A DNA stretch of 42,502 bases, taken from the NCBI RefSeq assembly GCF_900182795.1, contig NZ_FXTX01000014.1, forward strand, positions 1 through 42,502. The letters run 5' to 3'. Of this stretch, positions 5,015 through 19,519 are shown in pieces. The DNA comes from Venenivibrio stagnispumantis (GTDB taxonomy: Bacteria; Aquificota; Aquificia; Aquificales; Hydrogenothermaceae). The position numbers were made by a program, and so were the translations under genes. Numbering within the stretch: position 1 is the first letter of the stretch; each line of letters opens with the position of its first letter. The notes below the pieces were generated by a model. It did not search any database, was not told the origin of the DNA, and saw only the letters and a program-made list of their open reading frames with translations.

Positions 5015-6049
5015 TCAACTTCTTATAGAAAGCTCTTTTACTACATCAACAAGATATTTTACTTTTGAAACTTTCATATCAGGTGATAAACCATGTCCGA
5101 GATTAAATATATGTCCTGAATCTTTTCCCCATTTATCTAATATTTTTTTTGCTTCATTTTTAATAACTTCTTCATTTGCATATAATACAATCGGGTCTAA
5201 ATTACCTTGAACTGCCTTATCAGTTTTTTGTTTTACAACGGATATATCTATCATCCAATCAACGCTATAAACATCTGCTCCGGAATCTATCATATAATCT
5301 AAAAATCCTGCAACTCCTTTTGTAAAATGAATTACCGGCTGATAATCTCTTTTTAAATTTTTTATTATCTTTTTTATAGGTGGGAGTGCAAATTTATTAT
5401 AATCATCAGGGGTTAGATATCCTGCCCAGCTATCAAAAATTTGCACTGCATCTGCACCGGATTCTATCTGAAAATTAAGATATTCTATAAGCATATCTGC
5501 AAGTTTATCAAGAAGTTCCTGAAATTCTGTTGGATTTTCATACATAAAAATTTTTGTCTTTTTAAACTCTTTGGAAGTTTTGCCTTCAATCATATATGCT
5601 GCAAGGGTAAAAGGTGCTCCACAAAATCCTATGGTAGGTATTTCTCTATTTAAAGCCTGATTTATACCTTTTATTATCTCGCCTACATAATAAACATCTT
5701 CTTTTTTAAATGGCTTTAATTTTTTTATATCTTCTTTTGTTCTGATAGGATTATTAAATACCGGTCCCTCTCCTTCTCTAAAATCAAAATCCATACCTAT
5801 GGATTCAAGTGGTGTAAGTATATCTGAAAATATAATTGTAGCATCTATATCAAGTATCTTCTTAGGTAAGATAGAAGCCTGAACTGCTAAATCAACATTT
5901 TTATAAAATGCTTTAAAATTACCGGCTTTTTCTCTTAAAGCTCTGTATTCTGGCATATATCTTCCGGCTTGTCTCATAAGCCATATAGGTGTCCTTTCTA
6001 TATCTTCTTTATAACAGGCTCTTAAAAATAAATCATTCTTAACTTTCAT
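5015..6049 (-). CDS. hemE: Uroporphyrinogen decarboxylase HemE
   Basis: HemE decarboxylates the four acetate side chains of uroporphyrinogen III to give coproporphyrinogen III in haem synthesis. Near the N-terminus the substrate-binding signature RQAGRYMPEYR is intact, and GFCGAPFTLAAYMIEG follows at about residue 140. I place the start at the ATG at 6049, where GAGG stands 5 nt upstream; the GTG at 6055 overlaps that site. The result is 344 aa, normal for the family. It is the first gene of the hemE-rluD-DUF2905-queA-lptD run and has its own extended -10 promoter. Confidence 0.95.
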   Translation of the reverse strand: MKVKNDLFLRACYKEDIERTPIWLMRQAGRYMPEYRALREKAGNFKAFYKNVDLAVQASILPKKILDIDATIIFSDILTPLESIGMDFDFREGEGPVFNNPIRTKEDIKKLKPFKKEDVYYVGEIIKGINQALNREIPTIGFCGAPFTLAAYMIEGKTSKEFKKTKIFMYENPTEFQELLDKLADMLIEYLNFQIESGADAVQIFDSWAGYLTPDDYNKFALPPIKKIIKNLKRDYQPVIHFTKGVAGFLDYMIDSGADVYSVDWMIDISVVKQKTDKAVQGNLDPIVLYANEEVIKNEAKKILDKWGKDSGHIFNLGHGLSPDMKVSKVKYLVDVVKELSIRS

Positions 6050-6083
6050 AATCACCTCAATCTATTAAGATACCACTTAAAAA

Positions 6084-6092
6084 ATTATATCA
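6084..6092 (-). promoter_or_regulatory. Extended -10 promoter of hemE
   Basis: On the minus strand TGATATAAT (TATAAT at 6084-6089 with an upstream TGn) lies about 35 nt before the hemE start. No good -35 hexamer is visible, as is common with extended -10 elements. Confidence 0.45.
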
Positions 6093-6168
6093 TGAAGCGA
6101 GTATTAATAAATATTTTATTGTTCATACCATTCAGTTTTTAACTTATTTTCTAAATTTTTATTTTCTT

Positions 6169-6315
6169 TTATTGTTCCAAATGGGATTCAACAAGTTTTT
6201 TAGCTTTCTCTTTTTTCTCCAACTCTTTAATAATTTTTTCTATCTGCTTTAAAGTAAGGGATGTTTTTAATCTTAATTCACCTTTATCTTCTGTCTCAAT
6301 AATTACTTTACCCAT
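6169..6315 (-). CDS. Small charged hypothetical protein (48 aa)
   Basis: A 48-residue frame begins MGKVIIETEDKGELRLKTS and ends KKLVESHLEQ. It is preceded by a strong ribosome-binding site (GGAAGGTG) 5 nt before the ATG. The protein is lysine/glutamate-rich: a predicted short beta hairpin followed by a helix of about 28 residues. I do not recognise a family. It lies alone in the 378-nt divergent region between hemE and proB, on the hemE strand, with 119 nt to hemE. The good initiation site and typical codon use argue for a real small gene. Confidence 0.5.
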   Translation of the reverse strand: MGKVIIETEDKGELRLKTSLTLKQIEKIIKELEKKEKAKKLVESHLEQ

Positions 6316-6421
6316 CTTAACACCTTCCAAAATTTAATTTTTACCTTTTCTATTAAAATTTTTAGTTTTATAGAAAGTATAAATCCTTAATTAAAAATAT
6401 GCAAGCAAAAGATTAAAATAT

Positions 6422-6433
6422 TATAATATTCAT
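6422..6433 (+). promoter_or_regulatory. -10 element immediately before proB
   Basis: A perfect TATAAT (6422-6427) ends 6 nt before the proB ATG (6434). No Shine-Dalgarno-like sequence is present in between. If this is the active promoter, transcription would begin at or next to the start codon and the mRNA would be leaderless. No convincing -35 box is seen. Confidence 0.4.
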
Positions 6434-7540
6434 ATGGAAAGAATAGATTATATAAAATCAGCAAAAAGGATTGTTTTGAAGATAGGCTCCGGTATATTGG
6501 AAAAAGAAGATGATATTGATATAGAATTTATTCAAAATCTTGCAAATCAAATAAAAAATTTAGATAAAGAATTTATTATAGTATCTTCCGGTGCAGTTTT
6601 AGCAGGGGTAAAAAAACTAAAATTAAAATATAGACCAAAAGATATTACAGAAAAACAAGCAGTTGCAGCAGTAGGACAGGCATATCTTATGCAGATTTAT
6701 GACAATATTTTTTCAAAAAATAATCTAATAGTAGGTCAGATACTTCTCACTACAGAAGGTTTAAGAGAAAGAAAAAGATATATATATGCAAGAAATACCT
6801 TAAATAAATTGATAGATATGAATGTTATACCTATTATAAATGAAAATGATACAATTGCAGTAGAAGAGATAGTTTTCGGAGATAATGATTTTTTAGCTGC
6901 CCATGTATCTGTTCTCGCCCAGGCAGATTTATTAATAATATTATCAACAGCCGGTGGTTTATATACAGATGACCCATCAAATCCGGATTCTAAGCTCATA
7001 GAAGAAATAAAAGATATAGAAGAAGCTCTAAGCTATGCAAAAAGTTCAAAATCAAAATTCGGAACCGGTGGAATGAGAAGCAAATTAGAAGCCTCTAAAA
7101 TTGCAACATCTCACTCAATTCCAGTAATAATTGCTCCCAAGAAAGAAGATATAATAAAATCTATTTTTGAAGGAGAAAAAGTAGGAACATTTATATATCC
7201 TGCAAAAAACAAAAAATTAAAAGAGAAAAAAAGCTGGCTATCTCTTTTATCTGCTCCAAAAGGAAAAATCATAATAGATAAAGGTGCAGAAAATGCATTA
7301 AAAAATAAAAAAAGCCTCCTTCCTGCCGGAATAAAAGAAGTAGAAGGAATATTTTATCCAAAAGATGTAGTTGCAATTGCATCGGAAGATGGAAAAATAA
7401 TAGGCAAAGGTATTGTAGAAATTGGTTATAAAGATTTGAAAAAAATAAAAGGATTAAAAACAAGCTACATAGAAAAATTATTAAATAAAAAAATATCAGA
7501 AGTTATTCATATAGATAATATGGTTTTATTTGATGAATAA
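6434..7540 (+). CDS. proB: Glutamate 5-kinase ProB with PUA domain
   Basis: ProB phosphorylates glutamate to gamma-glutamyl phosphate, the first step of proline synthesis. The 368-aa protein has an amino-acid-kinase domain (residues about 8-255) and a C-terminal PUA domain (about 275-355), the standard long form. Visible motifs are KIGSGILE near residue 16, VSSGAVLAGVKKL near 50, INENDTIAVEEIVFGDND near 135 and GTGGMRSKLEASKIA near 213. It heads a two-gene + strand unit with nfi, whose start overlaps its end. Confidence 0.95.
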   Translation: MERIDYIKSAKRIVLKIGSGILEKEDDIDIEFIQNLANQIKNLDKEFIIVSSGAVLAGVKKLKLKYRPKDITEKQAVAAVGQAYLMQIYDNIFSKNNLIVGQILLTTEGLRERKRYIYARNTLNKLIDMNVIPIINENDTIAVEEIVFGDNDFLAAHVSVLAQADLLIILSTAGGLYTDDPSNPDSKLIEEIKDIEEALSYAKSSKSKFGTGGMRSKLEASKIATSHSIPVIIAPKKEDIIKSIFEGEKVGTFIYPAKNKKLKEKKSWLSLLSAPKGKIIIDKGAENALKNKKSLLPAGIKEVEGIFYPKDVVAIASEDGKIIGKGIVEIGYKDLKKIKGLKTSYIEKLLNKKISEVIHIDNMVLFDE

Positions 7541-13171: not shown

Positions 13172-13221
13172 TAAATTTTTTGATTTAGAGAGAAAATTAT
13201 TGAGAATTTGAGAATTATAAG

Positions 13222-13566
13222 TGGAGGCGGGGGGAATCGAACCCCCGTCCGACAGCATCCCAGCAGTTGGGCATCTACATGCTTAGCCTGTGAGAAAGTT
13301 TCGCCTATAAACCGGCACAGGCACCGGTTTATAGACTATCCTCTTAAAATTTCCCGAAAGCCTTAAGAGGAGCTCGGCTTTCAGTAGCCTGTATCTCTTA
13401 CGCCCTTCTACAGCCTACAGGCAAGCCATAGAGGACGTCGCTGCGTTAATTAAGCAGCGAGTGCGAGTTCGCGTTCGGGAATTGTTTGTTTTTGGTTTTT
13501 TACGGAGTCGCCTTCTCCGGCATGCTTCCCGCAGCCTAATGCTGCCGTCGAACCCGAATCGCCCCC
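13222..13566 (-). ncRNA. ssrA: Transfer-messenger RNA (tmRNA)
   Basis: The minus-strand transcript starts GGGGGCGATTCGGGTTCGAC and ends with a T-loop GGTTCGATTCC and CGCCTCC, which pairs with the 5' GGGGGCG to form the tRNA-like acceptor stem. The CCA end is not encoded in full (ACT follows). The tag frame ends at the TAA at 13450-13452. It encodes about 15-17 residues ending PERELALAA, with AAC as the likeliest resume codon (NQKQTIPERELALAA). tmRNA with SmpB rescues stalled ribosomes and marks the products for proteolysis. The gene is far richer in GC than its surroundings, typical of structural RNA in a thermophile. Confidence 0.95.
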
Positions 13567-16704: not shown

Positions 16705-16872
16705 AAATTACCTCACACAAAAACAAAAAAACTTTTTAATATTTTAGCATAGATTTAGATAAAACTTGGAAGCTTAAAAAATAACTTCAATAAAAAGATA
16801 AAATAGAATAAAAAAAGATAAAATAAAATCCATTTTTTAACTTTACCTCTAAAATTATTGAGAAAGCAGAAA

Positions 16873-16891
16873 AACGCCCATAAAGGGCGTT
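16873..16891 (-). terminator. Terminator of the glycine-zipper/nuclease-like cassette
   Basis: AACGCCC (16873-16879) pairs with GGGCGTT (16885-16891) around a 5-nt loop. Read on the minus strand, the stem is followed by TTTCTG after GCGTT, a short U-run. It begins 8 nt after the stop of the 333-aa gene. Confidence 0.8.
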
Positions 16892-16899
16892 CTTGCAAC

Positions 16900-17901
16900 T
16901 TATTCTAAGTTTCCAAGTACTAATTTATGTTCCTGTAATTTTCTTCCAAAATCCTTATTAATAACTCCGTTGCTTTTAATAATTTCAAGTTTTCCAAGTT
17001 GTGCTCCTATGCTTAACACTTTGAAAGCTTTTCTTATTTCTTCCATTGCTACCATATCATAATCAAAAGCATTATAACCATATCTTCTAATAATATCATT
17101 TACTCTATTAATTTCTCTATCTACTATCATACTAAGGTTATACATTAAATTAGAATATTCTTTTATCAAACTTGATAGTTTATTATAAAATCTAACTCCT
17201 TCTCTTCGTGCTTCAAAAACTTTTTCCGCTTTTGCAAGTTCTTGCTTTGCATCTTCAAGTTTGCCTTTCATTTTTTCATCCATTATAAATCCACCGATTA
17301 AAATGGCCGGAGCAAAAGTAATTCCACCTAAAACAATAGAGCCTAAAGCCATTCCTCCACCACCTGCTGCTAATGAACCTCCTCCTAAAAATGCCAAAAA
17401 TGCATTGGTTGCTGCTGCTCCGCTTAAAGCACTAAGAGCTGTTCCTGTTGATGCTACTCCTATACTCATAACAAGATTTGTAATTAATACATTTGAAGCA
17501 ACTCCGGCTGCTACTCCTGAAGCTAAAGATGTTCCAATACCGGTTAATATATCTTTTAATTCCATTATTTCTGTTTTCACTCTTCCTAAGTTTAAATTAA
17601 CATCGCTTTTTAATTCATTTTTTCTTATAGAACCTTCAATATTTTTTATACTTGAGATTAAGTTATACAAATGTGGAAGTTTTATTCCATAAACTTCTTT
17701 CATAATAATTTTCGCATTATCGGCTGCTGATTGAACTTCATCCTTAGCTCTTAAAAACTTTCTTTTTGTTTTTTTATCATTTTCCTTAATGTAATTTGCA
17801 ATTTCCTTAATTTCCTCATTTTTTTCCAATGCATCAAGACCTTTTTTTACACCTGCTCCTGCAGCTAAAGCGGCTCCTGCTAAAAGTAAAAATGGCAACA
17901 T
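16900..17901 (-). CDS. Glycine-zipper membrane protein of unknown function
   Basis: A 333-aa protein with a hydrophobic N-terminus (residues 1-18), a charged helical region (20-75), a long Gly/Ala-rich hydrophobic core (about 119-206) and a helical C-terminal half. The core contains ASTGTALSALSGAAATNAFL and FLGGGSLAAGGGGMALG, a repeated GxxxG-type pattern expected to pack membrane helices or insert into a bilayer. I have an impression of similar uncharacterised bacterial proteins with the STGTA-SGAAATNA-LGGGSLAAGG pattern, but no known function. AGGAGG precedes the ATG. It follows the 450-aa gene by 22 nt and ends at a strong terminator, so the pair forms one transcription unit. Confidence 0.8.
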   Translation of the reverse strand: MLPFLLLAGAALAAGAGVKKGLDALEKNEEIKEIANYIKENDKKTKRKFLRAKDEVQSAADNAKIIMKEVYGIKLPHLYNLISSIKNIEGSIRKNELKSDVNLNLGRVKTEIMELKDILTGIGTSLASGVAAGVASNVLITNLVMSIGVASTGTALSALSGAAATNAFLAFLGGGSLAAGGGGMALGSIVLGGITFAPAILIGGFIMDEKMKGKLEDAKQELAKAEKVFEARREGVRFYNKLSSLIKEYSNLMYNLSMIVDREINRVNDIIRRYGYNAFDYDMVAMEEIRKAFKVLSIGAQLGKLEIIKSNGVINKDFGRKLQEHKLVLGNLE

Positions 17902-17923
17902 AACACATACCTCCTAAATTTTT

Positions 17924-19276
17924 TTATAAAATTAAAGGTTTATCACTATAAAATCTTCTTTCAAATTCATCATTATCTATTTTTCTTAAATTAAATAAAT
18001 CACAAAACATATCAAGATATTTTTCATCATCAGTTTGTATATAGTTTTTCAAAATTTTATTTCCTTCTTTAATTAACTCCTCTATATAAGATAAATGGAG
18101 TAATAAAAGATCTACTCTACTTCTTAACTCGTTTTTAAAAATTTCTAAAGCTAAAAATGCCTCTTTTGTTTGTTGCTCTTTAATTTTATTTACTCTTATT
18201 AAATTTTCAAGATATCCAAAGGATAAATGACCAAAAGCATACCCAAGCAACCCACCTAAAACTGCACCTACAGGACCTGCAACAACAGCTCCAACTCCTG
18301 CATAGTATAATGAATTTAATGATTCAGTTGCTGTTTTAGCCACTCTAATTGAGCCTTCCGTAGCTGTAATTTCTCCTTTTAATACCAAATGTAATGATTC
18401 TATTCCGGTAATAATTGTTTTAGATATAGCTCCTACAACAGGAGTATTATTCAATCCTTTACCAAGAATATAAGATAACGAAGATATAGCTCCGGTTTTT
18501 CCGGCAGATTTTAATGCCTTAGATACGCTTTCTTTATCTATACTTTTCTTAACAATAGTTTCAGTTGCAAGTGTTAAGGCAAAAGCTGTTCCTGCTGCGA
18601 ATAAAGTAAGTTCTCCACCTTCTCTCAAATATAATTTTAGCTTTTCATTTCTTACAAATTTTTCTGTATTTTCTGTAACATAAAGGACTTCATTATAAGA
18701 AGTTCCTCCGGACTTAACTCCTTTATAAGATATTTCTTTATCCAAAGTTTCTAAAAGTTCCTTATATTTTCCTTGATATATATTTCCTGATAAATATCTT
18801 TTTTCATAAAGTTCTTTAATTCTATCTATATGTTCCGGATTTGTTATTCTTCTCATTCCGGAGTAATCATCTCTAAAAAATTCTTTTGCAGGATACATAT
18901 GAGAAGATGAAGATTTTAACTGGAAATAAGTTAATGCTTTATTTATAACATCAATACCTTCTAAATCTTTTGGAGCAATTACTATATCAGCAGGATGAGT
19001 TCCATTCCCTTTAATTGAAGAAGTGACATAACTTCTAAAATTTTCTCCTTTTAATGCTGCATCTTGGTTGAATTTATAACTTTCCAAATACTCATAAATA
19101 AAACCTTGTCTTTGAGAGATATCTTGATTTATTCTTCTTAAAGATTCTCTTAATAAATTATCTAAATCTAATAACCCTTGTCTTGTTGATTCCGGAATAT
19201 TATTAAGTTCTAATAGAGAAATTGCAGAAGTAATAGACGGTATAGTGAAATCAAGATTGTTCTTTGTGTTTCTCAT
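17924..19276 (-). CDS. Putative nuclease-like N-domain plus membrane-insertion region, unknown function
   Basis: A 450-aa protein. I choose the ATG at 19276 because GGAG stands 8 nt upstream; a TTG at 19294 lies before that site. Residues 55-145 read RQGFIYEYLESYKFNQDAAL, then HPADIVI and YFQLKSSSS. Glu62, Asp97 and Gln119-x-Lys121 are spaced like the E...D...(D/E/Q)xK active site of restriction-endonuclease-like folds (QxK occurs in Mrr-type enzymes). DDYSGMRRITNPEHI follows. Two hydrophobic Gly/Ala-rich stretches (about 223-241 and 324-349) suggest membrane association, and the C-terminus is helical. The nuclease assignment is inference from motif spacing only. The partner gene also has a glycine-zipper core. 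Confidence 0.7.
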   Translation of the reverse strand: MRNTKNNLDFTIPSITSAISLLELNNIPESTRQGLLDLDNLLRESLRRINQDISQRQGFIYEYLESYKFNQDAALKGENFRSYVTSSIKGNGTHPADIVIAPKDLEGIDVINKALTYFQLKSSSSHMYPAKEFFRDDYSGMRRITNPEHIDRIKELYEKRYLSGNIYQGKYKELLETLDKEISYKGVKSGGTSYNEVLYVTENTEKFVRNEKLKLYLREGGELTLFAAGTAFALTLATETIVKKSIDKESVSKALKSAGKTGAISSLSYILGKGLNNTPVVGAISKTIITGIESLHLVLKGEITATEGSIRVAKTATESLNSLYYAGVGAVVAGPVGAVLGGLLGYAFGHLSFGYLENLIRVNKIKEQQTKEAFLALEIFKNELRSRVDLLLLHLSYIEELIKEGNKILKNYIQTDDEKYLDMFCDLFNLRKIDNDEFERRFYSDKPLIL

Positions 19277-19519
19277 GATAAACTTCTCCTGCAAAAATTA
19301 ATTTAAATTCATATTATTTTTGTGCTATAATACCAATACCGAAGAATAATGAGAGTTAATTTTTTAAACAAAGAATTTTTTAATTTCCTGTATTATCTTT
19401 TTCATACATCAAATTTATTAATATTATTTCATATCGGTTTTGGTATAAATATTTTTTATTCAATTAATATTTTTCTTATAATTTTAGGACATTTTTTATA
19501 GAAAATCAAATATTATTTT

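Follow-up and report, generated by a model that had tools for sequence, protein, structure and literature searches.

The window, a stretch of 42,502 nucleotides from Venenivibrio stagnispumantis, contains a two-gene locus that is probably a self-contained antiviral system and a deeply diverged relative of the PADLOC phage-defence candidate PDC-M09. The 450-aa product of gene B (P0001) would be a nuclease of the PD-(D/E)XK type that is anchored in the membrane, and the 333-aa product of gene A (P0002) is its likely glycine-zipper partner. Gene A belongs to the PDC-M09A family, and gene B is related to PDC-M09B at the level of sequence profiles. Relatives of the two genes occur as pairs in mobile and defence-related contexts.

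The locus and its surroundings

Gene B (17924..19276, minus strand) has an ATG start and is preceded by the Shine-Dalgarno sequence AGGAG at 19286-19290. Gene A (16900..17901, minus strand) also has an ATG start and follows on the same strand after a spacer of 22 nt (17902..17923), which contains its own Shine-Dalgarno sequence AGGAGG (17910-17915). The spacing suggests that B and A are co-transcribed. On the 3’ side of gene A is an intrinsic-terminator-like hairpin of 10 pairs followed by a T-run (16870..16894, minus strand); two such sites were found, compared with 0.7 expected in shuffles. The earlier note had described the two open reading frames, their coordinates and spacing, a terminator of their own and unrelated housekeeping flanks, all of which agree with this layout.

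Downstream of the pair lie a nitronate-monooxygenase-like gene and a conserved gene of 128 aa, and upstream of it lie a DUF4149-like gene and ndk; all names were read from the sequence. These flanks resemble housekeeping genes and the window is not a defence island. The GC3 of the pair (13-15%) is equal to that of the neighbouring genes. In an empty-site comparison for horizontal insertion, relatives differed in the genes that lie upstream of the conserved flanking gene of 128 aa. The window also has a tmRNA gene with the tag ATESRAPLKAFGKF (13219-13566, minus strand), which is its sole Rfam match.

Relationship of the two proteins to PDC-M09

P0002 matches two PADLOC PDC-M09A models, PDLC04407 (E=4.8e-24) and PDLC04406 (E=6.9e-22), while a Pfam search with it gave no match. 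The glycine-zipper core at residues 119-206 (ASTGTALSALSGAAATNAFLAFLGGGSLAAGGGGMALG...VLGG; 17284..17547, minus strand) has columns that are invariant across sets of 7 and 16 homologues. The earlier note had placed the core at these residues, and hydropathy gives nearly the same glycine-zipper and hydrophobic stretch (~118-209). The core common to A homologues of the same phylum and of Bacillota is ASTGTA(I/L)xxLSGAAxxNAxLAxxGGG(S/A)xxAGGxGxxxGxxVLGG, with coiled-coil regions on both sides. Credible homologues (E<=1e-10) were found in 6 genomes in a 136-genome search of the phylum. Sequence matches in the PDB, such as viral fusion proteins aligned to the Gly-rich core and coiled coil of A, are compositional only and were taken as chance. 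A tblastn search of P0001 and P0002 against phages and plasmids gave no match.

The relationship of gene B is more distant. P0001 had no B match in Pfam or PADLOC and did not match any PDC-M09B model up to E=10; as a single sequence it was not significant against PDC-M09B. A search of 61 genomes from its family and order found no other relative, so the distribution is patchy. Matches elsewhere in the order, at residues ~113-172, are methionyl-tRNA synthetases and were rejected as chance. The nearest relatives came from a 399-genome sample of Bacillota and are G306 (E=6e-26) and G233 (E=9e-21), followed by weaker matches in G207 and G433; these E-values are per genome, and the genomes are samples. 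The G207 protein, which is in the same clade as P0001, matches PDC-M09B directly at 5.5e-16 across both the nuclease and membrane parts. The weaker relatives are therefore independently confirmed.

A profile of the three closest sequences (P0001, G306 and G233) was compared by hhalign with a profile of nine PDC-M09B proteins, which resulted in a prob of 97.3, a score of 91.9 and an E of 1.7e-11 for this one comparison. The best of 60 column-shuffled controls scored 39.9 and the reversed profile scored 27.7. Most of the signal is in the C-terminal half of B (prob 96.3, E=1.5e-9 alone). The N-terminal half alone is weak (prob 32.6, E=5e-4), and its alignment falls on the motif discussed below. 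An HMM of the B family built without P0001, G306 and G233 detects the G233 copy at 5e-28. The family HMM detects P0001 at 8e-16 when G306 and G233 are included and only at E=0.005 when they are not. The clade-II copy in G233 is truncated at the N-terminus, lies next to an apparent RNase P RNA gene and is not accompanied by A. At the profile level, P0001 thus appears to be a distant PDC-M09B homologue linked through its Bacillota relatives. The Gly/Ala-rich C-terminal region that aligns with the PDC-M09B C-terminus (~residues 220-360; 18197..18619, minus strand) is a predicted membrane region, in which hydropathy marks one clear hydrophobic stretch (~325-349) and a weak one (~220-300).

The putative nuclease motif of gene B (18914..19108, minus strand) consists of QGFIYEYLESYKFN (Glu62, Glu65 and Asn70), Asp97 and Gln119-Leu-Lys121. 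The earlier note had read Glu62, Asp97, Gln119 and Lys121 correctly, but its generic E...D...QxK pattern is insufficient as a sign of a nuclease. This pattern occurs in 87% of P0001 shuffles and in 31 of the 42 open reading frames of the window and is so common that it is no evidence on its own. A stricter family motif, drawn up with the homologues already in view, is present in 0.07% of shuffles and in a single one of the 42 open reading frames. All full-length B proteins keep GxxxExxE(4-5)N...D...QxK; therefore, Glu62, Asp97 and Gln119/Lys121 belong to a motif of the family. The PDC-M09B proteins of plasmids and phages have the common motif HGxIAExxExxxxN...D...QxKF, to which QGFIYEYLESYKFN...D97...QLK corresponds in P0001. 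The conserved Glu, Asp and (E/Q)xK are invariant across PDC-M09B and are kept in P0001, G306, G207 and G433.

PD-(D/E)XK nucleases have conserved Glu, Asp and (E/Q)xK catalytic residues in an alpha-beta-beta-beta-alpha-beta core. The order and spacing of Glu, Asp and Gln-x-Lys in B are like those of this superfamily, but B differs in having no Pfam or PDB sequence match and no confident fold. AlphaFold with 7 sequences resulted in a pLDDT of 39.6 for P0001, and the canonical relative P0003 reached 55.6. In the low-confidence model of P0003, both Glu residues and the Asn sit on one helix, a short hairpin comes between Asp120 and Gln129-x-Lys131, and another helix follows. This helix-hairpin-helix may correspond to what a PD-(D/E)XK core would show. 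Foldseek gave no match at E<=0.001, and PDB sequence searches gave only compositional matches.

One locus (L068, 4320-7426) encodes a protein with a PDC-M09B C-terminus (5e-16) and an N-terminus that looks HNH-like by eye and has no call in Pfam, followed by a long A-like gene. It reads like a swap of nuclease modules, with an HNH-like domain in place of the PD-(D/E)XK-like N-terminus. Retention of the membrane half next to an HNH-like domain is as expected if the N-terminal end of B is a nuclease. Another locus (L061, 4069-5679) encodes a QxK-motif protein with a Gly-zipper membrane segment, a weak PDC-M72B match and a near-threshold Pfam match to C19orf12. This protein is perhaps from a further family of membrane-tethered nucleases.

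The A tree and the B tree each split in two with 100/100 support. One part is canonical PDC-M09 and the other is a second deep clade, which holds P0002 in the A tree and P0001 in the B tree. P0001, P0002 and the B protein of G285 are long branches, so the exact branching within the second group is uncertain. The split does not rest on these long branches alone, since both trees place G207, G433, G222 and G306 together on one side of it.

The window pair and PDC-M09 therefore have much in common: two adjacent genes on one strand, an A of the same family, a B with a G..E..E..N / D / QxK motif and, after it, a membrane C-terminus rich in Gly and Ala, and mobile and defence contexts among relatives. 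However, the window genes fall in the second deep clade and their order is different. In the window B is followed by A after a 22-nt gap, whereas in the canonical pairs examined A precedes B and the genes mostly overlap or lie within a few bases. Because the PADLOC B models do not recognise P0001, the pair was named a divergent PDC-M09-like subtype and not PDC-M09. None of the papers searched described PDC-M09 or showed an activity for it.

Pairing and genomic contexts of relatives

The earlier note had made its reading depend on the co-occurrence of homologues, which is now supported by both sets of loci. In the 399 Bacillota genomes A was found (E<=1e-10) in 15 genomes at 16 loci, and B adjoins A at 8 of these (G462, G233:C4, G207:C19, G433, G306, G222, G440 and G285), in either gene order. 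All 8 plasmid loci that were opened have A followed by B. Plasmids from several phyla carry such pairs. PDC-M09B is matched in 60 plasmid records, of which 46 are from Klebsiella. Six viral contigs (L033 and L062-L066) also have A and B, and the neighbours in L033, L063, L064, L065 and L066 are phage-like by inspection. In L033, a contig identified by way of A, the A-like gene is directly followed by a 514-aa PDC-M09B (PADLOC 1e-151), and the pair is inserted among phage tail genes.

The A and B pairs adjoin DUF262, dynamin, McrBC-type, AAA_13 and ter genes, although neighbour names that lack a family match are readings by inspection. A Lactococcus plasmid pair is flanked on each side by a dynamin gene and has a DUF262 gene close by, a Leptolyngbya pair adjoins a McrBC-type restriction gene, and two Klebsiella plasmids (L044 and L045) have a PDC-M09 pair within ~4 kb of a tellurite-resistance (ter) operon. 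The clade-II operons in G207, G433 and G222 are accompanied by a TerB gene. The clade-II operons of L059, L060 and L113 contain TerB, B, A and a small CxxCxxCC zinc/iron-chelating protein (PF03692), which is possibly a four-gene form.

The A gene is also found with other partners. In the phylum of the window A usually occurs without B, and A genes other than that of the window are mostly next to genes for small coiled-coil partners. L112 has A without B, with TerB and PDC-M40B. In L031, where B is likewise missing, the companions of A are BnzB (1e-48) and TerB, and a cytosine methyltransferase and a Vsr-like gene adjoin them. Bunzi is described as a BnzA/BnzB, TerB-containing system (Millman et al. 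2022, as cited in PMC10952713). The likeness to Bunzi consists of this A-type glycine-zipper protein beside BnzB and TerB genes and of the TerB genes with clade-II operons. The window differs in that it has no TerB or BnzB gene, and B was unrelated to BnzB in the searches made. Neither P0001 nor P0002 had a BnzB or TerB match, and by inspection the adjacent genes are not TerB. A second A-like gene of G024, encoding 344 aa (L029, G024:C1:1433214-1433714), adjoins a BnzB homologue (6.5e-67); judged from these matches, it is a Bunzi system in the family of the window.

Several A genes are next to CRISPR or restriction genes. The A homologue of L120 (7512-8447 of G024:C1:608000-626000), from the same family as the window, is directly downstream of a type III-D operon, Cas10-Cas5-Cas7-Cas7-Csx1, and is accompanied by coiled-coil genes of 124 and 142 aa. 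It is possibly a membrane ancillary protein of type III CRISPR. The ancillary genes of type III-D systems include Csx1 (CARF-HEPN) and its neighbours. The window differs from these systems, since there is no cas gene in its 42 kb and no CARF domain in P0001 or P0002. In L116 (G207:C52), among CRISPR-like repeats, a PDC-M09A-like gene (5888-6766) has Cas1/Cas2 on one side and two CARF-HEPN genes on the other. A is beside a truncated Csx1 in G040 and beside a type II restriction-modification pair in G062.

Possible mode of action

The contexts agree with the part of the earlier note that proposed an effector and partner pair with a nuclease-like N-terminus and a link to defence, because A is of the PDC-M09A family and homologous pairs are carried by prophage-like contigs and plasmids and have restriction, CRISPR, Bunzi and ter genes as neighbours. 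In the favoured reading B would be a PD-(D/E)XK-type nuclease that uses Glu62, Asp97 and Gln119-x-Lys121, with its Gly/Ala-rich C-terminal domain as a membrane tether. A, a coiled-coil protein, would be embedded in the membrane by its glycine-zipper core and would hold B or sense for it. The two proteins may assemble at the inner membrane through their glycine-zipper segments. Phage entry or a disturbance of the membrane would then rearrange A and free B, and the released B would cleave nucleic acid. Its target would be the DNA of the entering phage or, in an abortive response, all DNA.

With A constant while its partners change, A itself may be the membrane-damaging effector. In that case the triggered glycine-zipper core would form a pore or disrupt the membrane, and B would be a sensor or switch that detects or processes phage nucleic acid. 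Csx1, TerB/BnzB or small coiled-coil proteins would take this role at other loci. The range of partners (nuclease B, TerB with BnzB, type III-D CRISPR/Csx1 with coiled-coil proteins, or small coiled-coil proteins only) is consistent with a killer A, as is the core being the best conserved part of A. However, the motif residues of B are invariant in its family and its N-terminus is apparently exchanged for an HNH-like domain, which suggests that cutting matters and favours the N-terminus of B as the effector. The nuclease-effector reading is therefore ranked first, and a pore-forming A is second and rather unlikely.

It is improbable that the genes are a toxin-antitoxin-like stability pair, in which B would be a toxin that damages DNA or the membrane, A would keep it in check, and the two would persist as an addiction module. 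The tight spacing of the two genes and their presence on plasmids and phages would fit such a role, but both proteins are large and membrane-like, there is no small labile antitoxin, the gene order varies and A is often alone. Even less probable is a housekeeping module of the lineage for membrane stress or DNA maintenance that resembles defence genes by chance. Its location among housekeeping genes and its native base composition are in favour of this, but the pair is absent from the other searched genomes of the family and A matches a defence candidate at 5e-24. The inter-bacterial role also proposed in the earlier note was rejected as very improbable: a nuclease with Gly-rich hydrophobic segments does resemble polymorphic toxin architecture and a T7SS LXG toxin is ~4 kb from one plasmid pair, but no secretion signal, trafficking domain, immunity gene or secretion cluster was seen in the window or beside the other pairs examined, and the presence in phages and with CRISPR and restriction genes points elsewhere.

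The pair with the favoured nuclease reading extends the defence candidate PDC-M09 to a deep second clade that is missed by current detection models. The membrane subunit A of PDC-M09 is met again next to Bunzi and type III CRISPR genes. A tentative wider proposal is that the PDC-M09A-type glycine-zipper protein serves bacterial immunity as a general membrane module that can be plugged into PDC-M09-like pairs, into Bunzi-type TerB systems and, as an effector next to Csx1, into type III-D CRISPR. The window pair would then be a separate subtype that has a divergent PD-(D/E)XK membrane nuclease. If this is true, several immune systems would be served by one membrane module.
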